DNA from: Bdellovibrio reynosensis
Lineage (GTDB): Bacteria > Bdellovibrionota > Bdellovibrionia > Bdellovibrionales > Bdellovibrionaceae
Direction: 5' to 3'
DNA: 64,000 nucleotides
Assembly: GCF_022814725.1 (NCBI RefSeq)
Contig: NZ_CP093442.1
Span: forward strand, 434,001 to 498,000
Position 1 is the stretch's first letter. Every line of letters begins with the position of its first letter. A model generated the notes under the pieces. That model searched no databases, had not been told where the DNA came from, and saw only the letters and a list, made by a program, of their open reading frames with translations. The position numbers and the translations under genes were made by a program. Below, one piece after another: positions 54,242 to 58,001 of this stretch.

Positions 54242-54576
54242 ATTTCGCGGTATTTTGGCACATCACGAGCGACTCATTTTCTGTAAATTAAAATGCTACA
54301 TAGTTTGTTTAACGGCTGACTTACCACCGCTCCGGTGGCTTGAGATGTCATATCAAAAATGTCATGCTGATTTTGTTGACGGGTTTTTGGTGTTCTTAAA
54401 ATCCTCGCTGCTTGAAAAAACTTGGACGAAAATTTTAAAGTGGCTTTGATGAGAAGATCTCTTTTTATAAGCTAAATGCGACTGTTTAAAGAGTGATAAA
54501 AAGAGGTTTTCCATTGCCGAGAAATTTAACTCTTAAAAAGCCGTGTTATACACTTTCCCATCGCTGGGAGATTTTT
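54242..54576. other. Gene-free spacer with a 15-base palindrome
   Basis: No gene supported; a short ORF at 54255-54449 lacks a ribosome site. CCACCG-CTC-CGGTGG (54324-54338) is a perfect palindrome, and its reverse complement recurs inside the HNH gene at 55292-55306. Confidence 0.6.
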
Positions 54577-55575
54577 ATGAATTCACTTTCGCAGCTTTCA
54601 AATAATGAACTTGAGTCACGGCTAAAGTACTTAGTGCAAAAAGAGCGCAGACTCTTGCATCTTATCTTAGAACATATCCGCGAGGTCGATTCTCGGAAGC
54701 TCTATTTAGAAAAAGCTTATTCTTCCATTTATGATTATCTCATCAAAGAGCTTGGATATTCCGGATCGGCAGCCATGCGCCGACTTGAAGCGGCTCGATT
54801 GCTTCGTGATATTCCAGAAGTGGCCGAAAGAATTCAAGATGGTTCATTGAATTTAACCCAAGTGGGTGAAATTTCCCGAGCGATCAAAGAAAAAGAAAAA
54901 GTTAGCGGAGAGAAAATTTCAAATTTGCAAAAGCAAGCTTTGATCGAAATAGTTTTGGGCAAAACGACACAAGAAACTCAGCAGGAACTGGCGCAGGCTT
55001 TAGATTTACCCTTAAAAGAATATGACACTCAAAGAGTTCAAAAAGATGAGTCTGTACGGTTAGAACTTACACTGACTAAAGAACAACACGAAAAACTTTT
55101 GCGCTGCAAAGACTTGGCAGCTCATATCCTTCTGCAAGAACATGGGTCCATTGCACTTGCAGACGTGATTGAATTTTTAGCGAATCAGTATTTGGATGAA
55201 AAGTTTAAACGCAAAAAAGCTTCAAGTTCGGCAACGGTTGAGGATGAAGCGATGACGAATTTGGAAATTAATTTCCCGGAAGCAATAGTCACCACCGGAG
55301 CGGTGGTGAAAAATGTGGAAATCGGGGAAAGCTCAAAGGAAACAAAATCCGTCACTCCAAAAATGCGGCGCATGGTTTTTAAGAGGGATAAATGCTGCCA
55401 ATACGTAGATCGGACAACGGGGAAAGTGTGTGGAAGTACCTTTGCTTTGCAAGTGGATCATAAGGTTTCAAAGTGGGCTGGTGGTGTGAATTCACTAATG
55501 AATTTGCAACTTCTGTGTGGAATGCATAATCGCGCGAAATATTATAACGAAAAAGGCTTGAAAATACGGAGCTAG
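54577..55575 (+). CDS. HNH endonuclease
   Basis: Stand-alone HNH nuclease. The N-terminal ~200 residues are helical with LYLEKAYSSIYDYLIKELGYSGSAAMRRLEAARLL, resembling the DUF222-like N-terminus that precedes many bacterial HNH domains. The C-terminal HNH domain has CCQYVDRTTGKVCGSTFALQVDHKVSKWAGGVNSLMNLQLLCGMHNRAK, with Cys pairs and His-Asn-His core. ATG 54577 has GGGAG six bases upstream. 332 residues. It does not overlap an intron or intein. Possibly from a mobile or defence element. Confidence 0.85.
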   Translation: MNSLSQLSNNELESRLKYLVQKERRLLHLILEHIREVDSRKLYLEKAYSSIYDYLIKELGYSGSAAMRRLEAARLLRDIPEVAERIQDGSLNLTQVGEISRAIKEKEKVSGEKISNLQKQALIEIVLGKTTQETQQELAQALDLPLKEYDTQRVQKDESVRLELTLTKEQHEKLLRCKDLAAHILLQEHGSIALADVIEFLANQYLDEKFKRKKASSSATVEDEAMTNLEINFPEAIVTTGAVVKNVEIGESSKETKSVTPKMRRMVFKRDKCCQYVDRTTGKVCGSTFALQVDHKVSKWAGGVNSLMNLQLLCGMHNRAKYYNEKGLKIRS

Positions 55576-57440: not shown

Positions 57441-58001
57441 TTATTGTCCTTTAAAGGATTCGCGGATTTTTTCTAATAACAATCCTAGTTTGTTTTTTCC
57501 GGTGCGATCCCCGCAGTCACCCCAGTAACAATCGTTGGTGGTGTGCTCATAGATTCTAGCGTTGCCGGTTGAAAGCAATAAAATCTTCAACTCTGGGTAG
57601 CGTGAGAATTTATCCCATACTGCCTTTTCCATGAATTCATCTTTTCGTTGATCCCAGTCGGCGCGCTTCGGAATGTTTTTATCGCGACCCCGTTGCGCGG
57701 CTTCATAAGGGGTTGGCGCTGACTTCACCCATTCAATAAGCTCAATAGTGTCGTATTTGTGGGCTTGATAGTAATGTTCGCTGGTTGACCACCATTGGTT
57801 ATCAACAAACACAGGAAAAAGAGCAAAGTTAGAAAATTCCCCGTAAGCATCCTTGGTAGAATAAAAATCTAAAATATCACCTTGATAGGGAACCGCGGGA
57901 GTTTCAGGAAAGCGATCATAGTGAGGCGCCTTAGAGTGAGCACATGAAACAGAAAGCACAATGACAGCGATCAAGAGGAAATAACTTTTTAGAATTTTCA
58001 T
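57441..58001 (-). CDS. NADAR-domain lipoprotein (YbiA-like N-glycosidase fold)
   Basis: NADAR proteins (YbiA, ribA/ribD-fused) act as N-glycosidases on riboflavin intermediates or remove ADP-ribose from nucleobases. The domain is intact: FYSTKDAYGEFSNFALFPVFV, WWSTSEHYYQAHKY, AQRGRDKNIPKRADWD, and the C-terminal STGNARIYEHTTNDCYWGDCG with GKNKLGLLLEKIRE. ATG 58001 starts a lipoprotein signal with LSVSC (Cys about residue 19). NADAR proteins are normally cytoplasmic, so an exported form is unusual. Single minus-strand gene. No ribosome site is evident. Confidence 0.85.
   Translation of the reverse strand: MKILKSYFLLIAVIVLSVSCAHSKAPHYDRFPETPAVPYQGDILDFYSTKDAYGEFSNFALFPVFVDNQWWSTSEHYYQAHKYDTIELIEWVKSAPTPYEAAQRGRDKNIPKRADWDQRKDEFMEKAVWDKFSRYPELKILLLSTGNARIYEHTTNDCYWGDCGDRTGKNKLGLLLEKIRESFKGQ

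Follow-up and report, generated by a model that had tools for sequence, protein, structure and literature searches.

A putative lipid-anchored NADAR protein of Bdellovibrio reynosensis and a second exported NADAR-like family in Bdellovibrionota

Introduction

NADAR proteins are known as intracellular antitoxins, repair enzymes or metabolic enzymes. The NADARs that have been tested, covering YbiA, stand-alone, antitoxin and phage types and including E. coli YbiA and T4 gp30.3, de-ADP-ribosylate guanosine in DNA or RNA in vitro; they are inactive on thymidine ADP-ribose, and the E. coli C7 NADAR is inactive on phosphate-end ADP-ribose (PMC11125620, PMC11833690). In the Phytophthora NADAR, the residues that contact ADP-ribose or take part in catalysis are E43, K50, R79, W89, E125, D130 and W133 (PMC11543638), and the gp30.3 class carries a His in place of the YbiA Glu (PMC11125620). 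The E. coli ybiA gene lies within a DNA-damage operon (PMC11125620), the DarT1-NADAR antitoxins (E. coli C7; BC4488 subfamily) have a catalytic Asp and an adjacent DarT, and in the YarT-YbiA pairs of myxobacteria the YbiA-type antitoxin is encoded beside an ART gene. Our literature search found no description of an exported NADAR and nothing relevant joining Bdellovibrio and NADAR.

Here, we present a NADAR protein of Bdellovibrio reynosensis, called P0001, that differs from these systems by a predicted export signal. Its gene lies in a window of 64,000 nucleotides (NZ_CP093442.1, positions 434,001 to 498,000), which is the whole stretch of DNA that was analysed and to which all coordinates of this gene refer. 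Relatives were searched in 369 Bdellovibrionota genomes, so that the phylum counts pool predators and non-predators, and also across 84,980 species genomes, from which an outgroup was picked by two short peptide patterns; exported NADARs may also occur outside the sampled outgroup. Signals were judged by pattern, by hydrophobicity and by comparison among relatives.

Results and discussion

A complete NADAR domain follows a lipoprotein signal

The gene of P0001 occupies positions 57441..58001 on the minus strand and encodes 186 aa (MKILKSYFLLIAVIVLSVSCAHSKAPHYDRF...FKGQ) from an ATG at 58001, so the coordinates, start and frame of the initial annotation were correct. The N-terminus, MKILKSYFLLIAVIVLSVSC-AHSK, reads as a signal peptide of residues 1-19 (57945..58001, minus strand) with the n-region MKILK and the h-region SYFLLIAVIVL, leading into the lipobox LSVS-C (57942..57956, minus strand) with Cys20 as the acceptor (codon 57942-57944). 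Residues 10-20, LIAVIVLSVSC, match the PROSITE pattern PS51257, with the Cys closing a hydrophobic segment close to the N-terminus, which makes P0001 a predicted bacterial lipoprotein and would imply lipidation and an envelope location. The pattern survives in 1.0% of shuffles of the first 40 residues. Residue +2 is Ala, and there is thus no Asp+2 inner-membrane retention signal according to the E. coli rule. In an in-frame scan of the ORF, no start codon separates Cys20 from the NADAR domain; the other in-frame starts are TTG 57974 and GTG 57959, both within the signal, and GTG 57812, within the domain, and the objection that the start had been misplaced therefore fails.

The NADAR domain extends over residues 46-183 (57453..57866, minus strand). 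It matches Pfam PF08719 with an E value of 3.2e-28 and 99.5 bits (cut-off 35.1) over profile positions 2-162 of 163, and TIGR02464, the profile of riboflavin biosynthesis intermediates N-glycosidases, with 114.6 bits (cut-off 73.7). The initial annotation of an intact NADAR domain behind the lipoprotein signal LSVSC is hence borne out on both counts. Among solved structures, E. coli YbiA is the nearest relative (2b3w, E 1.1e-41), ahead of the Phytophthora NADAR with ADP-ribose (8bau). An AlphaFold model of P0001 (mean pLDDT 88) shares the core fold of YbiA, with Z 17.4 and an rmsd of 2.6 over 155 residues, and aligns with the 8bau complex at Z 13.6 and an rmsd of 2.9 over 147 residues. No further fold match of the model rose above noise, all remaining rows having Z ≤ 2.4.

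In the alignment to 8bau, whose chain numbering is two higher than the residue numbers of PMC11543638, the Phytophthora residues listed above map in the same order to E75, K82, R106, W116, E152, D157 and W160 of P0001. Glu75, within SEHYYQA (57777..57779, minus strand), corresponds to the distal-ribose Glu, E43 of the Phytophthora and E88 of the E. coli C7 NADAR; Lys82 (57756..57758, minus strand) corresponds to the essential, phosphate-contacting K50 and K95, respectively; and Glu152, within YEHT (57546..57548, minus strand), aligns with E125, the last-strand Glu that defines the YbiA subfamily (roles from PMC11543638). Asp157 and Trp160 are the counterparts of D130 and W133. Every mapped residue is kept in P0001 and invariant in 12/12 aligned exported copies, which answers the call of the initial annotation for a profile search with mapped catalytic residues.

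P0001 thus shares with E. coli YbiA the domain (44-48% identity over ~140 residues), the catalytic Glu and the flanking Asp and Trp, whereas YbiA begins at the domain, without a signal, and has Ala or Gly at the positions of a Cys pair found in the exported proteins (see below). The Phytophthora NADAR has the same fold and ADPr-contact residues but is a eukaryotic stand-alone protein whose domain lies within ~10 residues of the chain start, with no signal region. Membership of the NADAR superfamily and the site Glu and Lys are common to P0001 and the DarT1-NADAR antitoxins; in place of their catalytic Asp, however, P0001 has a Glu, and no DarT was found in the B. reynosensis genome. The YarT-YbiA pairs belong to the YbiA subfamily as well and come from a phylum with predators, but P0001 is not placed beside an ART gene and, unlike P0001, the Myxococcota NADARs examined carry no signal.

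The 3,582,323-base genome encodes no NADAR besides P0001. The P0001 gene is single and convergent with a DUF4423-type gene, and its flanks hold a small unknown ORF and a gene for a dienelactone hydrolase whose N-terminus resembles a signal. Elsewhere in the window, positions 54493-55575 (plus strand) encode a DUF222 protein whose C-terminus is HNH-like, the HNH score being just below its cut-off.

Export is conserved in Bdellovibrionota, the lipid anchor is not

YbiA-like relatives of P0001, hereafter the first family, occur in 12 of 24 Bdellovibrio genomes. Together with one copy from a neighbouring genus, 13 full-length proteins were available, and all 13 begin with a hydrophobic segment that runs up to a Cys, while the signal sequences themselves diverge widely; the initial annotation would have been weakened by orthologues lacking these features. 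Within Bdellovibrionota, a signal is visible in 34/34 distinct YbiA-like sequences that group with P0001, 32 of which exceed the hydrophobicity threshold. Among relatives from other phyla this threshold was passed by 1/47, via a spurious upstream extension that is missing from sister sequences, and in Myxococcota, which likewise include predators, ~30 NADARs begin at the domain without a signal. The few signal-less NADARs of Bdellovibrionota (L023, L044, L046) belong to other branches. One of these loci (L023 / L043, genome G014) is an extra copy in a Bdellovibrio genome that overlaps its upstream gene and is possibly a mobile defence gene. A further locus (L024 / L090, genome G359) encodes an exported protein of 455 aa with a long N-terminal region and a C-terminal NADAR domain.

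The exported copies include lipoprotein types (e.g. L025-L030, L034, L037, L041) and proteins with an ordinary signal peptide without Cys (L031, L033, L035, L036, L039 and many Bacteriovorax and Halobacteriovorax copies). Strict lipobox matching misses five copies because of a Gln at -3 (SQIAC or SQMAC, four related copies) or a Pro at -2 (one copy). A phylogeny of 83 proteins unites the exported ones in one clade (96/89; 98% of bootstrap trees), which suggests that export most simply arose once in the Bdellovibrionota branch, and the lipid anchor changed at least four times. The ordinary signals in Bacteriovorax and Halobacteriovorax indicate that the conserved trait is export and not the lipid anchor. 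Hence, when the initial annotation is extended to other Bdellovibrionota, the signal and export hold throughout the first family, but conservation of the lipid anchor does not, the Cys being absent from many copies. Within the Bdellovibrio clade of the first family nests a copy from another class (L034, genome G184, family f12); the nearest fork is modestly supported, and the placement suggests gene transfer. In close first-family pairs, dN was far below dS (0.06/2.2, 0.05/0.63 and 0.09/1.05; ranges 0.05-0.09 for dN and 0.6-2.4 for dS), indicating that the protein is under purifying selection.

A second feature that follows export is the pair Cys158 and Cys163 (NDCYWGDCG; 57513..57530, minus strand), a candidate disulfide. 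Both Cys were found in 26 exported proteins, neither in 8 and a single one in 0; the pair occurs in 0/46 non-exported proteins (Fisher P 5.5e-8, kinship ignored), so that exported copies mostly read NDCYWGDCG and cytoplasmic ones NDxYWGDGG. A disulfide formed in an oxidising compartment would leave such an all-or-none pattern, and C158 and C163 may be bonded in this way. On the tree, the pair needs two changes: it is absent from early branches and was lost jointly once (L040, L049). By this distribution, a disulfide would seem to have evolved after export.

Judged from these comparisons, the export signal of P0001 is neither a chance resemblance nor a start-site error, and P0001 is almost certainly exported. 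An alternative is that the hydrophobic N-terminus reflects a misread start or a membrane anchor, with the domain remaining in the cytoplasm. We regard this as very improbable, as no start codon lies between signal and domain, the signal is kept in 34/34 relatives despite its varying sequence and is in some of them of the ordinary cleavable kind, the all-or-none Cys pair speaks against a cytoplasmic domain, and the Lys-bearing n-region would orient the N-terminus inwards and the domain outwards.

A second exported NADAR-like family alternates with the first in Bdellovibrio

The search with the first family also yielded weak matches (E near 1e-4) to proteins of ~210-280 aa, marked by YPxxWW...WEILPQ...SKRxELGxxSNF...S[VI]EGxWQxxKYPE...PDH. 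In hhalign, this second family matched the first with 98.7% probability and an E value of 2.9e-16 over 137 columns, with the site Glu and Lys aligned. The best Pfam matches were Phage_30_3 (8e-9) and NADAR (4e-7), both under their cut-offs, for which reason these proteins are probably annotated as hypothetical; the PHROGs matches were phrog_652 and phrog_1017, the latter also being the PHROG of the first family. An invariant Asp-His fits the gp30.3 class, and the profile comparison supports a fold link, suggesting that the second family is a divergent, gp30.3-like NADAR branch. With respect to T4 gp30.3 (Phage_30_3, PF08010), the family has Asp-His where gp30.3 types have His, but it stays below the curated cut-off of PF08010, carries a signal region and has no close phage copy among those found.

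The second family occurs in 113/369 genomes of the phylum, or 111 after removal of two marginal cross-hits (loci L014-L022, L051-L057 and L157-L206). An N-terminal signal is visible in 50/50 distinct copies, 46 of them over the threshold and 26 with a strict PS51257 lipobox. Outside the phylum, it was detected in 2/296 Bacteroidota genomes, likewise with a hydrophobic N-terminus. One carrier, G003, is presumably B. bacteriovorus HD100; in this HD100-like genome, the gene lies at L187:1441-2217 (minus strand). The conserved signals, the co-varying Cys pair and this second exported family together uphold, at the level of sequence, the earlier claim that the domain faces outside the cytoplasm.

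Among the 24 Bdellovibrio genomes, 12 have the first family, 9 the second, 0 both and 3 neither (two of these fragmentary). The chance of zero overlap is 1.7e-4 if phylogeny is ignored. An rpoB tree requires at least four switches; it is poorly resolved, and the independent pairs are too few for significance. One switch is well supported, namely the second-family carrier G022 within a first-family clade (99/98). Both families are found together in Bacteriovoracaceae (G069, G071, G102-G104, G142-G144, G184), and the exclusion is thus a habit of Bdellovibrio rather than a rule. The two subfamilies, YbiA-like with Glu and gp30.3-like with His, appear to fill the same slot in the phylum and to alternate in Bdellovibrio.

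Genomic context and phage relatives

An operon or partner gene was considered for the first family and rejected: the gene is solitary, and 19 neighbourhoods had no general partner in common, the context being kept in one small clade only. An ADP-ribosyltransferase partner was not found near the first-family genes of these neighbourhoods. A toxin-antitoxin pair was dismissed as well; no toxin gene is a common neighbour, and a DarT-like gene exceeded the cut-off in only 1/24 Bdellovibrio genomes (G011:C11:161393-161962, L207). The Tox-ART-HYD1 profile matched nothing anywhere, its controls included, and is therefore uninformative. A phage origin was discarded too, as viral contigs gave four relatives of the first family at 35-42% identity and one of the second at 27%, none of them close, and a fragment of the HD100-type protein had no match to phages and plasmids.

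In Bdellovibrio, a class-V aminotransferase gene (PF00266) consistently begins ~2-10 bases downstream of the second-family gene (L187, L188, L190, L192, L194, L195), and a metallo-beta-lactamase/beta-CASP gene is often divergent upstream. In genus g17, the second-family gene has an exported trypsin-like protease gene on either side, all three in the same orientation (L017 501-3050, L021).

Proposed function and alternative readings

P0001 would be exported by Sec and lipidated on Cys20, and it would sit in the envelope, probably in the outer membrane, facing the periplasm or the outside. There, Glu75, Lys82 and Glu152 would serve to cut the N-glycosidic bond that joins a base, for example guanine, to a ribose, which most likely belongs to ADP-ribose. 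The likeliest substrates would be guanine nucleotides or pieces of nucleic acid that carry ADP-ribose, and similar ADP-ribosyl adducts, supplied by prey or the surroundings, and their removal may be part of the digestion and salvage of prey nucleotide material. We therefore read P0001 as a putative lipid-anchored extracytoplasmic NADAR hydrolase that acts on ADP-ribosyl guanine adducts during prey digestion or salvage, and give this reading a probability of roughly 0.5. N-glycosidase activity on ADP-ribosyl substrates is in itself probable from the sequence, while a tie to prey or other external nucleotide material is tentative, with even odds at the most. Support comes from the match of the site residues to the ADPr contacts of 8bau combined with the in vitro activity of tested NADARs, and we also count in its favour the position between exported proteases in g17. 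The aminotransferase beside the second family gives no pointer to ADP-ribose and counts against it, as do the missing ADP-ribosyltransferase partner in the neighbourhoods and the near absence of DarT from the genus. Moreover, we know of no report of ADP-ribose adducts of nucleic acid or nucleotides in the periplasm or the bdelloplast.

The YbiA group is also annotated as acting on riboflavin intermediates (TIGR02464, which P0001 matches well above its cut-off), and ADP-ribose may thus not be the substrate. With riboflavin-precursor N-glycosidase activity cited for bacterial and plant NADARs (PMC11125620), P0001 could instead act outside the cytoplasm as an N-glycosidase of different ribosylated small molecules, such as ARPP/DARPP or damaged prey nucleosides, in salvage or clearance. 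We consider this rather unlikely, since the residues holding the ADP-ribose pyrophosphate (K82, R106, W116, D157, W160) are invariant in the aligned exported copies and riboflavin precursors are short-lived compounds of the cytoplasm; with its signal peptide, P0001 is in any case unlikely to cleave ARPP/DARPP there. The proposal that phage NADARs target low-molecular-weight ADPr derivatives (PMC9503650), together with the resemblance of the second family to the phage gp30.3 type, would fit the destruction of small ADP-ribose-derived signals or toxins, of the cyclic ADP-ribose type, from NAD-based immunity of the prey. Such signals act in the prey cytoplasm, however, and a protein of the predator envelope would arrive late, which makes this role improbable.

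The initial annotation had further raised the neutralisation of ADP-ribosylation toxins in self-defence. This part found no backing: no partner was seen, and an exported enzyme would be out of reach of the predator's own cytoplasmic nucleic acid. Immunity or clean-up against toxins acting at the envelope or in the surroundings, for instance Streptomyces ScARP or Scabin, could be thought of, given that ScARP modifies guanosine and guanine mononucleotides besides DNA and RNA and that NADARs reverse the nucleic-acid modification (PMC11833690); yet the targets of ADP-ribosylating toxins are cytoplasmic, and the neighbourhoods and the rarity of DarT described above make it quite improbable here. 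Exported binding proteins derived from enzymes exist, and P0001 might accordingly be a non-catalytic ADP-ribose binder such as a surface receptor, to which we give little credence because every residue known to matter for catalysis is kept.

Conclusions

The NADAR domain, its site residues, the signal, the conservation of export and the alternation of the two families are established by sequence comparison, and the preferred reading of P0001 as an extracytoplasmic hydrolase of ADP-ribosyl guanine adducts builds on them. A wider proposal would be that Bdellovibrionota use extracytoplasmic ADP-ribose/base N-glycoside chemistry in predation, with both subfamilies erasing adducts on prey nucleic acid or nucleotides as the first de-ADP-ribosylating NADARs known there; we put this forward as a doubtful extension. 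Proteins of the P0001 type are small, single-domain and probably soluble without the signal, and assays with guanosine-ADPr exist, so that they are directly testable, and the genetically tractable HD100 appears to have a second-family copy. The two exported NADAR branches point to extracellular ADP-ribose or base-sugar chemistry of an undescribed kind. If this is true, it would pay to remove ADP-ribosyl or similar N-glycosidic adducts outside the cytoplasm, and the question would arise of who makes such adducts in attacked prey.
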